DNA of 64,000 nt from assembly GCA_005116815.1 (NCBI GenBank), contig SWDR01000003.1:53866-117865 (forward strand). The letters run 5' to 3'. Within the stretch, counting starts at the first letter, position 1, and each line of letters begins with the position of its first letter. This DNA comes from Nitrospira sp. (GTDB lineage: Bacteria > Nitrospirota > Nitrospiria > Nitrospirales > Nitrospiraceae). Of the stretch, positions 719-60,011 are shown piece after piece. Below the pieces are notes generated by a model that was not told the DNA's origin, did no database searches, and worked only from the letters and a program-made list of their open reading frames with translations. Position numbers and translations under genes: made by a program.

Positions 719-1135
719 TTACGGATACTTGGCTTCGATCACGCTTCTGAGTCCGCCGCGGGCGGCAAACTCTCCCGTGACCGTCGCATGCAGAGGTCGG
801 CAGGATTTCACGACATCGTGCAGAATACGGTTGACGGCGTTCTCATAGAAGATTCCGAGATTTCTGTAGGCGTGGAGGTACATTTTCAACGACTTCAGTT
901 CCAGGCATTCTTTGTTCGGCCTGTAGTGCACCGTAATGGTGCCGAAGTCCGGAAGGCCGGTCTTGGGGCAGATGGCGGTATATTCAGGGATCTCGATCGT
1001 GATCTCGTATCCCTTATATTGATTCGGGAAGGTCTCGATATCCGGCAAGGGAGCGGTAATTCCGCTCTTTGCATGATCCTCGTTGTAGCCCAGTTTGGTG
1101 GTCTTCGATTTCTTTCTTGTCGCTTCACGTTTCAC
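719..1135 (-). CDS. queF: NADPH-dependent 7-cyano-7-deazaguanine reductase (QueF type I)
   Basis: 138 aa; KTTKLGYNEDHAKSGI..., ...YTAICPKTGLPDFGTITVHYRPNKECLELKSLKMYL..., conserved QueF motifs. Confidence 0.96.
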   Translation of the reverse strand: MKREATRKKSKTTKLGYNEDHAKSGITAPLPDIETFPNQYKGYEITIEIPEYTAICPKTGLPDFGTITVHYRPNKECLELKSLKMYLHAYRNLGIFYENAVNRILHDVVKSCRPLHATVTGEFAARGGLRSVIEAKYP

Positions 1136-1155
1136 GGTTCACGCCTCACGTATTG

Positions 1156-4583: not shown

Positions 4584-4943
4584 CTATTCAAAGGCTTCCA
4601 AGGAGGACCGTTCCGGGAAGGTTGTGTGGCATGAGGTGCAGGTTAGAAAATAGATGGATTCCCGGACGGACATGGTAATGCGAAAGTTGAGGCTTACGCC
4701 TCGCTGATTGCAGGTCGGGCAGGACATCTCCTTGAGCCGGTACGGGATGTCCGGTTGCGTGCGCTGGTAGAACTCCATATCCGTGTAGATCGGGAAACTG
4801 TAGTAGCACTTCTTGCAGACGCCTCGCCATTCCCCATCCGCCTGCATAAAGCGTTGATCGACCCCGAATCGGGACTCCTTACAGATCGCGCATTGAACGG
4901 TCTCGAGTCTGGTTTCAACTTCTTTGACGGTGAGGCTGGGCAT
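4584..4943 (-). CDS. Hypothetical zinc-ribbon protein
   Basis: 119 aa with four CxxC pairs (CAIC, CKKC, CPTC, CTSC). Confidence 0.6.
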   Translation of the reverse strand: MPSLTVKEVETRLETVQCAICKESRFGVDQRFMQADGEWRGVCKKCYYSFPIYTDMEFYQRTQPDIPYRLKEMSCPTCNQRGVSLNFRITMSVRESIYFLTCTSCHTTFPERSSLEAFE

Positions 4944-5073
4944 TCAGAGGCTCCTTGCGCAGAAGTGCGCGATATTATGCGGATAGTATAACGTTCACGG
5001 AGAAGCGAGCGCAACGGGATCTATCAGGGATTTTTTCTTGACCTGATTACGGCGCCGCCTATACTGAGAGCCG

Positions 5074-5650: not shown

Positions 5651-6487
5651 ATGCCGGAATTACCAGAAGCAGAGGCCGTCGCCCGTCAGATACGGGATCG
5701 TTTACTTGGCGCGCAACTCAGCGAGTGCCAGGTGGGCCGGGAAGATATTGTTCGTGAAGGGTTATCCACGCTCTCGTGGTATCGCGGTGCGCGGCTGGAA
5801 GATGTGGCGCGCTACGGCAAGAGTGTGGCGCTGGGCTTCAGGAACGAGGGCGAACTGCGATTCATCGTCGCAGAGCTCGGCATGACCGGCCTCTTGCTCT
5901 TTCACGCGACGAAGACGAAACATCCGCAGCATGTGCATGTTCGCATGTCGTTCACGGGAGGCCGTGAATCGGAGCTGCGCTACTGGAATCCCCGACGGTT
6001 CGGACGGATGTCCTTGCTGGATCAGGCGGGGCTCGATGCCTATCGCGCCCGCCGTTTTGGCGTAGATCCTCTGGTGGTATCGCGCGAGGAGTTCATCAGT
6101 CTGATGGAAATCAAACGTGGCAGGCTCAAGCCGCTCTTGATGCATCAGCAAGTCATCGCGGGGATCGGGAATATCTATGCGAATGAAATTCTTTTCCGCG
6201 CCAGGCTCCATCCGAACCGTGAGGTGAATCGGCTGCGCAAGGCGACGATTGTCACGCTCCATGAGACGATGCAATCGGTGCTGCGCGAGGCGATCTCCTG
6301 TGGCGGATCGAGCGTCAAGGATTTCTTCGCGCCGGATGGCACGGAAGGTCAATACAAGCGACGTCACCTCGTCTATGGCAAGGAAGGGCAGCCCTGCCCC
6401 AACCACTGCGGACGGCAGATTCGTCGTCTTCAAAGTGAACGAAGCTCGTTTTTTTGCCCAGCCTGCCAATCAAATCGATTCCGGTGA
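5651..6487 (+). CDS. mutM: Formamidopyrimidine-DNA glycosylase / endonuclease VIII family
   Basis: MPELPEAEAVARQI start, YGKSVAL, IAGIGNIYANEILFRARLHP, C-terminal zinc finger CPNHCGRQIRRLQ...FFCPACQ. Confidence 0.93.
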   Translation: MPELPEAEAVARQIRDRLLGAQLSECQVGREDIVREGLSTLSWYRGARLEDVARYGKSVALGFRNEGELRFIVAELGMTGLLLFHATKTKHPQHVHVRMSFTGGRESELRYWNPRRFGRMSLLDQAGLDAYRARRFGVDPLVVSREEFISLMEIKRGRLKPLLMHQQVIAGIGNIYANEILFRARLHPNREVNRLRKATIVTLHETMQSVLREAISCGGSSVKDFFAPDGTEGQYKRRHLVYGKEGQPCPNHCGRQIRRLQSERSSFFCPACQSNRFR

Positions 6488-6703: not shown

Positions 6704-7903
6704 ATGGCAAAGGTGCTCGAAGGTCCCGGGATGGGGCTGATGAAGAAGTGGGGTATCACGGTCCCCAACTATGTCGTCGTCACTTCGGTTGACGAATTGA
6801 CGAAGCTAGGCCAAGCCAATGAATGGCTGAAGAAATCCAAGTTGGTGGTGAAGGCGCATGAAGCGCTCGGTTCCCGGTTCAAGCTCGGTCTGGTGAAGGT
6901 CGATCTCGATTTCAAGGCGGCGGAAGCCGCGGCGAAGGAGATGATCGGTCGTCAGGTCGGCAGCATCACCGTCTCCCAGGTGATCGTGTCTGAAATGATC
7001 CCCCACAAAGAGGAATATTATTGTGCGGTGAAGTCTACTCGTGAAGGGACGGACATTCTGGTCGCGAATTGCGGCGGCATCGAAGTCGAGTCGAATTGGG
7101 AACGCGTGAAGCGCTTGGCTTTGGAAGTCGGGCAGCAGCCTTCGGCGGACGCGCTCGAGAAGGTAGCCAAGGACGCGGGTTTCACCGGTCCGCTCGTGAA
7201 GAAGATGGCCGATTTCGCGGGGAAAATGTTTGCCTGTTTCGACAGTGAAGATGCGCAGTATTTGGAAGTGAATCCCGTGGTTCTGCGCGAACAGGACGGC
7301 GAATTGATTGCCTTGGATGCGGTGACGCTCCTCGACGGCGATGCCAAGTTCCGGCATCCTGATTGGAACTTCGCCTTTGCCGCAGAATTCGGCCGCGCCT
7401 ATTCCAAGCACGAAATGGAAGTCATGGCGGTCGACTCCAAGATCAAAGGGTCAGTCAAATTTATCGAGATTCCAGGCGGCGATACGGCGATGCTCCCGGC
7501 AGGCGGTGGCGCCAGCGTCTATTATTCCGACGCCGTCGTGGCGCGTGGCGGCAAGCTCGCAAACTACGCTGAGTATTCCGGCGATCCGCCAGATTGGGCG
7601 GTTGAAGTCTTGACCGACAAGGTCTGCTCATTGCCCGGGATCAAGAACATCATCGTCGGCGGGGCGATTGCCAATTTCACCGACGTGGTGAAGACCTTTG
7701 GCGGCATCATCAACGGATTCCGCAAGGCAAAGTCTGAAGGGAAGCTCAAGGGCGTGAAGATCTGGGTGCGTCGCGGAGGCCCGCGAGAGAAGGAAGGGCT
7801 CGACGCGATGCGCGCGCTCAAGGACGAAGGATTCGACATCAACGTCTTCGATCGCAATACGCCGCTCACCGACATCGTCGATAAGGCACTGCAAAACAAG
7901 TGA
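6704..7903 (+). CDS. aclB: ATP-citrate lyase, small (beta) subunit
   Basis: 399 aa ATP-grasp/succinyl-CoA synthetase-like; followed by aclA. Confidence 0.93.
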   Translation: MAKVLEGPGMGLMKKWGITVPNYVVVTSVDELTKLGQANEWLKKSKLVVKAHEALGSRFKLGLVKVDLDFKAAEAAAKEMIGRQVGSITVSQVIVSEMIPHKEEYYCAVKSTREGTDILVANCGGIEVESNWERVKRLALEVGQQPSADALEKVAKDAGFTGPLVKKMADFAGKMFACFDSEDAQYLEVNPVVLREQDGELIALDAVTLLDGDAKFRHPDWNFAFAAEFGRAYSKHEMEVMAVDSKIKGSVKFIEIPGGDTAMLPAGGGASVYYSDAVVARGGKLANYAEYSGDPPDWAVEVLTDKVCSLPGIKNIIVGGAIANFTDVVKTFGGIINGFRKAKSEGKLKGVKIWVRRGGPREKEGLDAMRALKDEGFDINVFDRNTPLTDIVDKALQNK

Positions 7904-7970
7904 TCAGTGATCAGTGATGCGTGATCGGGTGAGTCGATTACCCATCACGCGTCACCCATCACCCATCACG
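7900..7970. repeat. Inverted 7-nt-period repeat between aclB and aclA
   Basis: GTGATCA GTGATCA GTGATGC GTGATCG GGTGA (loop GTCGA) TTACCCATCACGCGTCACCCATCACCCATCAC; arms pair over about 32 nt with mismatches. Confidence 0.85.
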
Positions 7971-7995
7971 GTTTTTTAAGAAGAGGGAGATCCCG

Positions 7996-9816
7996 ATGAG
8001 TATCCTGGCAAATAAAGATACCTATGTGGTCATTCAGGGCGGCGTCGCCGGCGTCAACGCCGCGCGCCGGATGGCCGAGTTTTGCTACCTGATCAAACGC
8101 TCGCTGAACGTGCTGGCCTTTGTCTATCCGCCCGATGCCGGCAAGACCCACGAAATTCCTTACGGCAGCGGCCTAGTGACCGTCCCTATCTATAAGACAG
8201 TCGCTGAAGCGACGAAGCACCATTCCCAGATCAACACCAGTCTCGTGTACATCGGTGCGGATCGTGCGCTGAAGGGTGGGATGGAAGCCTTGGACGACTC
8301 GCACATCAAGGTGGTCTCCATGATCACCGAGGGTGTGCCTGAAAAGGATGCCAAGATCCTGGGCCGTCATGCGACCAAGCTCGGGAAGGTCTTCAATGGC
8401 CCTTCGTCGATCGGGATCGTCTCAGCCGGCTCCTGCCGCCTGGGTGTCATCGGCGGCGCCTTTGATAATCTCGTCCTTTCCAAGCTCTACCGCGAAGGTT
8501 CCTTCGGCGTCATCACCAAGTCGGGCGGTCTCTCCAACGAAATTATCTGGATCTGCTCGCAGTTTGCAGACGGTATCACGACAGCCATCGGAATTGGCGG
8601 CGATGCCTATCCGGGAACCGACTATGTGAGTTATCTCGAGATGTTCGAGAACGATCCCCAGACGAAGGCGGTCATCATCGTCGGCGAAATGGGCGGCGAT
8701 ATCGAAGAGCGGGCCGCCGAGTGGTACGGCGCCAAGAAGCGGCGCGTCAAGTTGATGGCCGTGGTCTCAGGATTCTGCCAGGAAAGCCTGCCGAAGGGGA
8801 TGAAGTTCGGTCATGCCGGCGCGAAGGAAGGCTTGAAGGGCGAAGGGTCGGCCCGTGCCAAATCCGATGCCCTGAAAAATGCCGGTGCGATTGTCCCGGC
8901 GACATTCGGAGCCTTGGGCCCGGCGATCAAGGAAGCCTATCAGGAGATGTTGAAGTCCGGTCAGGTGAAAGAGCCGGTCGAGCCGGCTTCACTGCCGAAA
9001 TTGCCCAAGAGCATTGAAGCGGCCATGAAGGCCGATGAAGTCATGGTGGCCCCGCTTATCCGCACCACGATCAGCGATGACCGCGGCGACGAACCCTGCT
9101 ACGACGGATACCCGGCTTCCGAGCTCATCAATAAAGGCTACGAAATCCCCCATGTCGTGGGACTGTTGTGGGATAAGCGGCTGATTTCCAAACAAGAAGC
9201 TGAAATTATCAAGCGCATCATGATGCTCTCGGCCGATCATGGTCCCTGCGTCAGCGGGGCCTTGGGGACGATCATCGCGGCCTGCGCCGGGATCGGACTG
9301 TCCCAGTCGGTGGCGGCAGGCTTGATTATGATCGGCCCCCGCTTCGGCGGCGCCGTGACCGATGCCGGACGCTTCTTCAAACATGCCGTCGACAACAAAA
9401 TGACGGTGGACGAGTTCCTGGTCTATATGAAGAAGAACCATGGCCCTGTGCCGGGGATCGGCCATCGCGTGAAGAGCTTGCGCAATCCTGACAAGCGGGT
9501 GAAGGAGCTGGTCGGGTACGTCAAGAGTTTGAATATGAAGACGCCCTGCCTCGATTTTGCGCTCGAAGTGGAAAAGATCACGTCGGTGAAGAAGGACAAC
9601 CTGATCCTCAACGTGGACGGTACGATGGCGGCGGTGCTTGTCGATATTGGTTTCCCGGTCGACAGTTTGAACGGCTTCTTCATCCTCTCGCGCACGATCG
9701 GGTTGATCGGGCATTGGGTGGATCAAAAGCGTCAGGACAGCCGCTTGATCAGGCTGTTCGATTATTTGGTGAATTACGCGGCTCCCAAGCGCCGCGAAGT
9801 GCCGCCACTAAAATAA
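7996..9816 (+). CDS. aclA: ATP-citrate lyase, large (alpha) subunit
   Basis: 606 aa; CoA-ligase part with TKSGGLSNEIIWICSQFADG and citrate synthase-like C-terminus (GHRVKSLRNPDKRV). Confidence 0.94.
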   Translation: MSILANKDTYVVIQGGVAGVNAARRMAEFCYLIKRSLNVLAFVYPPDAGKTHEIPYGSGLVTVPIYKTVAEATKHHSQINTSLVYIGADRALKGGMEALDDSHIKVVSMITEGVPEKDAKILGRHATKLGKVFNGPSSIGIVSAGSCRLGVIGGAFDNLVLSKLYREGSFGVITKSGGLSNEIIWICSQFADGITTAIGIGGDAYPGTDYVSYLEMFENDPQTKAVIIVGEMGGDIEERAAEWYGAKKRRVKLMAVVSGFCQESLPKGMKFGHAGAKEGLKGEGSARAKSDALKNAGAIVPATFGALGPAIKEAYQEMLKSGQVKEPVEPASLPKLPKSIEAAMKADEVMVAPLIRTTISDDRGDEPCYDGYPASELINKGYEIPHVVGLLWDKRLISKQEAEIIKRIMMLSADHGPCVSGALGTIIAACAGIGLSQSVAAGLIMIGPRFGGAVTDAGRFFKHAVDNKMTVDEFLVYMKKNHGPVPGIGHRVKSLRNPDKRVKELVGYVKSLNMKTPCLDFALEVEKITSVKKDNLILNVDGTMAAVLVDIGFPVDSLNGFFILSRTIGLIGHWVDQKRQDSRLIRLFDYLVNYAAPKRREVPPLK

Positions 9817-9888
9817 GTGCTGAGTAGCGAGTGCTGAGTTCTGAGCCACGGATCTTTCTGTCCACGCTCAGCACTCAGGACTCAGAAC
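9817..9888. repeat. Inverted 7-nt-period repeat between aclA and acn
   Basis: GTGCTGA GTAGCGA GTGCTGA GTTCTGA ... GCTCAGC ACTCAGG ACTCAGA AC; right arm ends just before AAGGAG and ATG at 9908. Confidence 0.85.
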
Positions 9889-9907
9889 TTTTAAGGAGCG
9901 AACTGTC

Positions 9908-14410: not shown

Positions 14411-14419
14411 AAGAATGGT

Positions 14420-14490
14420 CGCGTGGCGAGAGGCTAGAGGCTAGGGGACGAAACCTTAGCCCTCTAGCCACTAGCCCCGTGCCTCTGGCC
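14420..14490. repeat. Inverted 7-nt-period repeat between icd and the fumarate reductase Fe-S gene
   Basis: GTGGCGA GAGGCTA GAGGCTA GGGG ... CCTCTAG CCACTAG CCCCGTG CCTCTGG CC, followed by TTTAAGGAATTTCATG. Confidence 0.85.
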
Positions 14491-14504
14491 CTTTAAGGAA
14501 TTTC

Positions 14505-15215: not shown

Positions 15216-15230
15216 CCTAACAAGCCATCT

Positions 15231-15296
15231 GCTGTCAGCTCTCAGCTTCTGACGTTGAGGCAAAAGCTGCAGGATGATGGCTGAACGCTGAAAGCA
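15231..15296. repeat. Inverted 7-nt-period repeat before frdA
   Basis: GCTGTCA GCTCTCA GCTTCTGA ... GGCTGAA CGCTGAA AGC; inner words complementary. Confidence 0.7.
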
Positions 15297-15301
15297 CATT
15301 C

Positions 15302-18063
<2,762 letters not shown>

Positions 18064-26929: not shown

Positions 26930-26967
26930 ACGGCAACGATGCGCAATACCACCAGGGCCTTTTCATC

Positions 26968-27016
26968 TCAGCACTCAGGACTCAGCACTCAGGACTCAGC
27001 ACGTAGCACCCAGCAT
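26968..27016. repeat. Seven tandem degenerate heptamers between the DUF47 and Pit genes
   Basis: TCAGCAC TCAGGAC TCAGCAC TCAGGAC TCAGCAC GTAGCAC CCAGCAT, ending 10 nt before ATG 27027. Confidence 0.95.
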
Positions 27017-46826: not shown

Positions 46827-46839
46827 CAAGCGGCCTGAA

Positions 46840-46908
46840 GCGTCGCTCGTCTTTCGTCGTTCGCAGGATGGTTACGCGCTTCACGAGATACGCTTCACGA
46901 AAGACACT
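46840..46908. repeat. Inverted 7-nt-period repeat between hpnH and the next gene
   Basis: CGTCTTTCGTCGTTCGC ... CGCTTCA CGAGATA CGCTTCA CGAAAGA C. Confidence 0.7.
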
Positions 46909-46914
46909 TCTCTC

Positions 46915-51628: not shown

Positions 51629-52741
51629 ATGAGCCATACTCCTTCTCCCAGCGCACCAACCACGATCCTTGAAAAAGTGATCGATTTTGTCGATGAACGG
51701 GTCGGCCTGAAGCTCCTGGCCGCCAAGATGCTCAATGAGCCGGTCCCGGGCGGCTCTCGTTGGGCCTATGTCTTCGGATCGGTGCTGTTGTTTATCTTCA
51801 TCATGCAAGCGGTCACGGGCGTGCTGCTGATGTTCTACTACGTGCCCACTGCCGACCATGCCTACGCCAGCACCCAATACATTCTGCATGAAGTTGACTA
51901 TGGCTGGTTCCTGTTGGGCTACCATTTTTGGGGCTCCACGGCCATGGTGGTCTGCGTCTTTGCACATATTTCCCAAGTCTTTCTCTGGGGCGCCTATAAA
52001 AAGCCCCGTGAACTCGTCTGGCTCGTCGGGCTCGGTCTCTTCGGTATCGTCATGGGGTTCGGTTTCACGGGGTATTTGCTGCCGTGGGATCAACGAGCCT
52101 ACTGGGCCACGACGGTCGGTGTAGAAATTCTGGATAAGACACCGCTACTCGGCGACTTCATGGCGCGATTCCTCAAGGGGGGCGCGACTCCTGGACAGAT
52201 GACATTGAGCCGGTTCTTCGTCATCCACGTGATGGTGCTCCCTGCCGCCTTGATGGGGCTGGCCGGGTTGCATCTGTTCCTCTTTAGATCGGCCGGGCCG
52301 GCTGGTCCATTCCGTGGTACGCCGGAAGAGTTGAAGGCCAAGACCGATTACTTCTTCCCGCGGCAGATCTGGAAGGATATCGTCGGCATGGCGGCGGTTT
52401 TCGCCTGTATCTGTGCCCTGGCCTTCTGGGAGCCGGTGGTCTTGCTGGAAGAGGCGACGCCTGATCCGGGCGATTATCATCCGGAGCCTGAGTGGTACTT
52501 CCTCTTTCTGTTTCAGTTGCTGCGGCTCAAGATGTTCTCCGGCGAGATGGGGCAGATGCTCGGCGCCATGGTGTTGCCCGGCGCGTTTATGGCGCTGTTG
52601 GCCGCCTTGCCCTTCTTCGACCGCGATCCCGAACGGAATATTTTCAAGCGCCCCATCGCCCTGATCGGATGGGTGGTGGTCATGGCTGCGATCCTGATCT
52701 TCACGATCTCTGCCATTATCAACCGAGAGTTTTTGGACTAG
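51629..52741 (+). CDS. Cytochrome b (b6/subunit IV-type fusion)
   Basis: GYHFWGSTAMVVCVFAHISQVFLWG, FVIHVMVLPAALMGLAGLHLFL (haem ligands), PEPEWYFLFLFQLLR (PEWY). Confidence 0.93.
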   Translation: MSHTPSPSAPTTILEKVIDFVDERVGLKLLAAKMLNEPVPGGSRWAYVFGSVLLFIFIMQAVTGVLLMFYYVPTADHAYASTQYILHEVDYGWFLLGYHFWGSTAMVVCVFAHISQVFLWGAYKKPRELVWLVGLGLFGIVMGFGFTGYLLPWDQRAYWATTVGVEILDKTPLLGDFMARFLKGGATPGQMTLSRFFVIHVMVLPAALMGLAGLHLFLFRSAGPAGPFRGTPEELKAKTDYFFPRQIWKDIVGMAAVFACICALAFWEPVVLLEEATPDPGDYHPEPEWYFLFLFQLLRLKMFSGEMGQMLGAMVLPGAFMALLAALPFFDRDPERNIFKRPIALIGWVVVMAAILIFTISAIINREFLD

Positions 52742-59922: not shown

Positions 59923-60011
59923 GGCTGGTTTATCTTGTTTATTTGGTCTCTCTGGTTTGTTTGGTTGAACGAGTCTAACCAGATGAACGAAACAAACCAG
60001 ATAAACCAGCC
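59923..60011. repeat. Long imperfect inverted repeat between ubiA and the caspase-like lipoprotein gene
   Basis: GGCTGGTTTATCTTGTTTATTTGGTCTCTCTGGTT ... AACCAGATGAACGAAACAAACCAGATAAACCAGCC; roughly 29 of 35 positions complementary by eye. Confidence 0.85.

Follow-up and report, generated by a model that had tools for sequence, protein, structure and literature searches.

Spacers between genes of Nitrospira carry heptad-repeat dyads, in which two short convergent arrays of a 7-nt word surround a unique loop and fill the interval that separates a stop codon from the ribosome-binding site of the following gene. These elements are described here in a 64-kb window (the whole stretch of DNA analysed, 64,000 nt of contig SWDR01000003.1 of the Nitrospira sp. 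assembly GCA_005116815.1) and in related genomes. A sequence-only reading of the window had reported intergenic repeats with a strict 7-nt period and a different word at each site; the repeats exist and largely match that description. Between species, the word changes through replacement of the whole spacer in one step, and not through co-varying evolution of the arms of one element.

The window belongs to G000, a Nitrospira metagenome-assembled genome of 1.97 Mb in 81 contigs (72% complete), of which 832 kb (approximately 42%) were sampled in stretches. Intergenic and coding labels were assigned by a simple hexamer-model gene caller, and some coding labels are wrong. Segment counts were preferred over plain lag autocorrelation, as lag-3 peaks from missed coding sequence muddied the latter. 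The sampled DNA contains 44 intergenic and 13 coding-called lag-7 segments, while Markov-shuffled sequence contains none. Lags 4-6, 8, 10-13 and 15-17 each yielded 0-1 intergenic segments, and lags 14 and 21 are harmonics. Seven is the usual step, but not the sole one: 9 intergenic segments were found at lag 9, and dyads of the period-9 CTGGTTTAT/AACCAGATA type sit in similar slots. The density of lag-7 segments is 6.9 per 100 kb in G000, 5.6 in the complete genome of the isolate N. moscoviensis and 2-9 in other Nitrospira. Values for sister families within the order are 0-1.8, and the 200 kb scanned of E. coli K-12 contain no such segment. The excess of lag-7 autocorrelation in intergenic DNA, which the sequence-only reading had proposed to look for, is thus present genome-wide and genus-wide. 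The same distribution does not bear out its placing of the elements in spacers of the reductive tricarboxylic acid (rTCA) operon, since the class spans the whole genome and the genus.

Dyads occur in 66/637 co-directional, 11/99 convergent and 3/101 divergent spacers (p 0.011). In the 66 co-directional period-7 dyads, the stem starts a median of 5 nt past the stop codon, and 19 nt separate its end from the following start; the arms pair over approximately 23 nt and the loop spans approximately 27 nt. Arms found at different loci of one genome are alike far beyond shuffles, while loop-loop scores equal those of shuffled sequences. The vocabulary is large, with 57 distinct canonical words in 98 segments, and the commonest words (GTGCTGA, GTGATGA, GATGAAC and CGTGAAG) have no G-tracts. 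Intrinsic terminators were considered and rejected, as the 66 elements have no T-tail (T 26% after the element versus A 30% before it); TTTTTT follows the window site at 7900 alone.

The orientation of the arms follows a rule. Of 79 dyads, 69 have a 5' arm that is richer in G than in C (69:10, p 5.5e-12). Since a dyad reads identically on both strands, the G-rich word points 5' to 3' towards the loop on each of them. The rule holds in 11/11 dyads of convergent spacers, where transcription cannot fix the direction, and orientation is also preserved within word families (272 pairs in the same and 42 in the opposite orientation). TGA or TCA is present in 73% of the heptad words versus 24% of intergenic 7-mers, whereas TAA, TAG, CCG and GTA are depleted. 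A function as an all-frame stop codon was rejected: TAA and TAG are among the depleted triplets, all three frames are closed by only 32% of the 5' arms, and the 5' arm has G>C in 15/15 dyads with few or no TGA. CTGA is also found within published heptad words of other phyla, such as TAACTGA and MTYCTGA.

Orthologous slots reveal how the words change. Dyads of the GTGCTGA, GTGATGA, GGACTGA, GCTNTCA and GATGAAC families occupy the aclA-aclB spacer in different species, and the other spacers of the cluster do the same with a far greater number of classes. In sister species whose coding sequences are 95-98% identical, unrelated dyads at one slot stand beside near-identical dyads at the following slot. 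For instance, the element is replaced at aclB-acn in L049/L051, at aclA-aclB and at the ferredoxin-FAD subunit slot in L087/L090, at idh-ferredoxin in L054/L055, and at both aclA-aclB and idh-ferredoxin between the window and L031, the nearest relative with the locus (AclB protein 100% identical, DNA 93.5% identical across 15 kb). The flanks of replaced spacers are mostly 94-99% identical. Among robust element slots, 3/5 are replaced between the window contig and the genome of L031, and 3/8 between G054 and G055; the median identity of heptad-free spacers is 89% and 94%, respectively. Many of the low-identity spacers that lack a lag-7 segment proved, on inspection, to reflect differences in gene-boundary calling. 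In one replacement, a period-7 dyad is exchanged for a period-9 dyad next to a conserved terminator (G054 51667-51811 and its G055 counterpart), and both periods are therefore tied to one class.

On a FastTree phylogeny of aclA+aclB, the four spacers require at least 19, 42, 32 and 23 class changes for 8, 20, 18 and 11 classes, the minima possible being 7, 19, 17 and 10. The same element classes come back in distant species, loops included. In L049/L051, divergence is 1-3% upstream of the replaced spacer and jumps to 3-17% downstream of it, a signature of homologous recombination. In near-identical pairs of retained element spacers, 7 nt is the commonest indel of at least 3 nt (10/36 pairs), with clean cases in L045/L047, L046/L051 and L109/L110. 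Orthologous spacers of relatives retain period and dyad with a differing word, in support of the sequence-only reading. The alternative, that the spacers of close relatives lack both, is not the general case, yet it applies to a 16-species clade including N. defluvii, in which the aclA-aclB spacer is just 47-50 bp and has no element.

The sites of the window are listed in Table 1. They were checked with Tandem Repeats Finder and a lag-7 segment scan, and dyads were assessed by RNA folding z. The rTCA/citrate-lyase cluster has the order aclA-aclB-acn-idh-ferredoxin-FAD subunit. Period 7, with a word that differs from site to site, was found at all eight sites for which it had been named, albeit weakly at 46841-46910. 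The statement that most sites pair two arms holds for four of the eight (7900, 9817, 14420 and 15231), while those at 16820, 26968, 46840 and 1125 are single arrays, not dyads. The repeat at 59923-60011, taken for a looser heptad version, is real and has a period of 9/18, not 7.

Table 1. Repeat elements of the 64-kb window and their counterparts in the L031 genome
Element	Position	Strand	Words and remarks	Fold z	L031 counterpart
Heptad dyad, aclA-aclB spacer	7899-7973 (period 7 at 7899-7969)	+	GTGATCA/GTGATGC, then ACCCATC; TTTTTT after	-7.1	GTGCTGA dyad in its place
Heptad dyad, aclB-acn spacer	9816-9891 (period 7 at 9816-9889)	+	GTGCTGA, then ACTCAGG	-3.7	kept, 89%
Heptad dyad, idh-ferredoxin spacer	14413-14492	+	GAGGCTA, then CTAGCCN; period-7 arms 14420-14447 and 14460-14490	-4.5	GCTNTCA-type dyad in its place
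Heptad dyad, ferredoxin-FAD subunit spacer	15226-15298 (period 7 at 15231-15296)	+	TCA-first family: GCTNTCA, then GCTGAAN	-2.4	kept, 90%
Single heptad array	16816-16864	+	GTGATGG/GTGATGA; no dyad; followed by a distinct GC-rich inverted repeat	-0.2	
Single heptad array, between PhoU-like (DUF47) and PHO4 genes	26967-27015	+	CTCAGCA/CTCAGGA; no dyad	+1.6	GTGATGA dyad at this slot
Weak heptad element, 3' of radical-SAM gene	46835-46911 (weak period 7 at 46841-46910)	+	CGTGAAG/CGCTTCA; no dyad	0.0	
Single heptad array	1116-1150	+	TTCACGN; no dyad	0.0	
Period-9 dyad, related class	59923-60011 (dyad 59925-60009)	+	CTGGTTTAT / AACCAGATA; period 9/18	-7.8	

The reading that we favour, with about even confidence, is that of a DNA-level repeat class, probably near neutral, shaped by 7-nt slippage and by the exchange of spacer alleles. 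Strand slippage in 7-nt steps would lengthen, shorten and homogenise the arrays. With the conserved genes on either side as anchors, recombination would swap spacer alleles and bring different words to one slot. The elements would persist 3' of stop codons because insertions are tolerated there, and any effects on mRNA stability or coupling would therefore be side effects.

Several observations weigh against this reading. No full-length donor copy of the aclA-aclB dyad of the window was found in the genome. Flank divergence is not raised around the window/L031 and L033/L034 replacements, and homologous recombination is not shown for them. Slippage and exchange alone do not account for new elements being dyads or for the G-rich word facing the loop; the origin of fresh convergent pairs is explained by none of the tests. 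Moreover, the folds at five window sites are very stable and operon-internal spacers are favoured, with co-directional and convergent positions preferred over divergent ones. The tests that argue for a DNA-level class are also small, the covariation test resting on two alignments and the mismatch test on 122 informative mismatches.

Stable folds and operon-internal positions are what would be expected of selected RNA hairpins. Such hairpins, placed between cistrons like some repetitive extragenic palindrome (REP) hairpins, would stabilise the upstream mRNA, guide its processing or tune the product ratio of the operon, and any word that pairs would serve. The location between stop codon and ribosome-binding site fits this possibility, as does the repeated occupation of one slot by dyads with unrelated words. 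The stems themselves do not behave accordingly. On the transcribed strand, mismatches in the stems of co-directional dyads are not biased towards G-U (57 G-T versus 65 A-C, p 0.53), whereas tRNAs, used as a yardstick, give 27 G-T versus 0 A-C, a count in which ARAGORN itself favours G-U. The sequence-only reading had suggested that dyad symmetry is conserved and had proposed covariance folding of the arms across orthologous spacers; conservation as a structure is not supported, and compensatory changes in retained orthologous elements are almost absent (1/21 and 0/10 pairs in the two alignments). An arm matches its own partner no better than it matches the arms of other elements of the genome with the same word (14.9 versus 13.9, p 0.17). 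Furthermore, the element is missing at aclA-aclB in a whole clade and at the ferredoxin-FAD subunit slot in several species. Rfam families have no match at the element sites, and the known RNAs of the window are two tRNAs only. The G-U, covariation and arm-match tests are all of limited power and make an RNA function less likely; we consider selected hairpins unlikely.

Rapid turnover between sister species might also be due to insertion and loss of non-autonomous mobile palindromes, similar to REPINs or miniature inverted-repeat transposable elements (MITEs) and moved by an enzyme acting in trans. The elements are extragenic hairpins with a REP-like location bias, and word proliferation is genome-specific: 20-mers of the GTGATGA type have 264 matches in N. 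moscoviensis, 93 in the genome of L031 and 0 in N. defluvii. Mobile copies would not, however, be expected to have unrelated loops in a genome without a full-length donor, and the classes at a locus resemble those at the same locus in other species. Y1 transposases of the REP-associated tyrosine transposase (RAYT) type are absent from 7/18 good-quality Nitrospira genomes, and high-quality genomes without a Y1/RAYT gene, such as G001, G004 and G009, are nonetheless heptad-rich. A RAYT/Y1 transposase was rejected as the driver, as heptads are not enriched near Y1 genes (0.45 versus 0.69 per 10 kb). Taken together, these data render a mobile element distinctly unlikely.

The sole Y1 transposase match of G000 lies at C75:2454-2777, on a 5.5-kb contig with GTGCTGA-type arrays (C75:280 and 934-1033); no general association between Y1 genes and heptads was seen in the other genomes. 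Compared with MITEs, the dyads themselves have no shared ends. A separate MITE-like family of 123-160 bp has the inverted ends CAGGATGCTGAAACAGG...CCTGTTTCAGCATCCTG, and some copies enclose a heptad dyad. It is found at L127 (approximately 6146-6400), L135 (approximately 4832-5000) and other loci of G000, with 29 ends in the 832 kb and none in 660 kb of N. moscoviensis. A long palindrome with GGAGGCGAGTTGCCT and its mirror occupies a convergent spacer of G054 (C14 62902-63051), only GGAGGCAAGTTGCCTCC being left in the sister G055, and may represent an insertion from a different class of palindrome. The final nine codons of aclB, stop codon included, are repeated as tandem 27-nt copies 3' of the gene in L084 (approximately 5659-5900), L081, L088 and L096, with differences between species in 27-nt steps (27, 54, 81 and 108 nt).

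The dyads could alternatively be scars of break-end extension, in which one G-rich heptad template serves to extend both 3' ends of a double-strand break before these are joined, leaving convergent arrays around an unrelated filler loop. Common arms with unique loops, orientation of the G-rich word to the loop on both strands, and arms drawn independently from a single word are all predicted by this process. The occurrence of several words within one genome speaks against it, and a candidate enzyme or template RNA was neither sought nor found; we regard such scars as highly improbable. That an active process in Nitrospira copies G-rich heptads from a template or word pool specific to the genome and adds them to the two 3' ends of broken or processed sites is hardly credible at present. 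If true, end extension would amount to a telomere-like activity at internal sites of the chromosome, the word being dictated by the template and the 7-nt step by the enzyme.

Finally, chance palindromes might be enlarged by replication slippage and quasi-palindrome correction, with no common word pool. The 7-nt indels are consistent with slippage, and the rank of heptamers as the commonest long SSR (simple sequence repeat) class in many bacteria has been ascribed to slippage of the polymerase (Mrazek et al. 2007, as cited in PMC4679880 and PMC4692102). Chance palindromes, however, would not share words between loci far beyond shuffles and in a genome-specific manner, and correction predicts that arms are more similar within than between elements, which is not seen. 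This origin is scarcely plausible.

The Nitrospira elements belong to a known kind, and are best read as a word-variable relative of known heptamer repeats. According to Mrazek et al. 2007, as cited in the two papers above, heptamers are the most abundant of the longer SSRs, and slippage was proposed. Xanthomonas genomes each contain approximately 70 convergent inverted GGGAATC array pairs (PMC4692102), and Geobacter metallireducens has several heptanucleotide words in opposite-strand pairs (PMC2700814). The suggestion that no such family is known to be described was therefore too strong. In the literature searched, no description of such elements in Nitrospira was found apart from a count of N. 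moscoviensis palindromes (PMC12306157).

The GGGAATC and GGGGA(C/T)T repeats of Xanthomonas and Nostoc (PMC4692102) are the closest in habit: their unit is 7 nt, mostly repeated approximately four times; they are intergenic, lie near the 3' side of the upstream gene, are rare between divergent genes and form convergent inverted pairs; their length varies among close species, and their function is not known. The convergence of G-rich strands seen in Xanthomonas-type pairs also characterises 69 of the 79 Nitrospira dyads. In contrast, Xanthomonas and Nostoc each use one G-rich, quadruplex-forming word per genome, whereas Nitrospira has many words, few of them with G-tracts, and its commonest words lack the G-tract of a quadruplex-forming word. 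Replacement of the whole element at a slot by one with a different word is likewise a Nitrospira feature. The "global regulator binding sites" of G. metallireducens (PMC2700814) are similar in having several heptanucleotide words (e.g., MTYCTGA), often in opposite-strand pairs at variable distance; they form alignable sequence families, proposed to be protein or RNA sites, while in Nitrospira the arms have the word in common and loops and flanks are unalignable.

TAACTGA direct repeats of Beggiatoaceae and the short tandemly repeated repetitive (STRR) sequences of cyanobacteria are also intergenic heptamer arrays at gene ends, the former with a CTGA-containing word. Unlike those of Nitrospira, they have a fixed word, occur as direct repeats only (one is indirect in BOGUAY) and lie upstream of start codons. 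Relative to heptameric SSR/STRR in general, Nitrospira exhibits the intergenic 7-nt excess and the 7-nt changes in copy number, but not a few fixed words. As numerous, dispersed extragenic hairpins located 3' of genes or between cistrons, the dyads recall REP, REPIN and bacterial interspersed mosaic elements (BIMEs). REPs have a consensus and, in RAYT systems, a cognate transposase, whereas the Nitrospira dyads show no loop-inclusive consensus and no RAYT link. The RepRanger palindrome catalogue (PMC12306157) would count such hairpins in N. moscoviensis, its table consisting of counts only; "tandem" and "heptam" are absent from the text, and the default 11-nt loop limit would miss most Nitrospira dyads. 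What the Nitrospira elements add to the known kind is an extensive set of words, the replacement of whole spacers between sister species, the pattern of shared arms and unique loops, and a measured orientation rule.

A hairpin conserved in orthologous spacers need not be a selected RNA structure; at Nitrospira slots it would recur because spacer alleles are replaced wholesale. With many words in one genus, dozens of orthologous slots and sisters one step apart, Nitrospira makes the step size, the orientation rule and the origin of such repeats testable.

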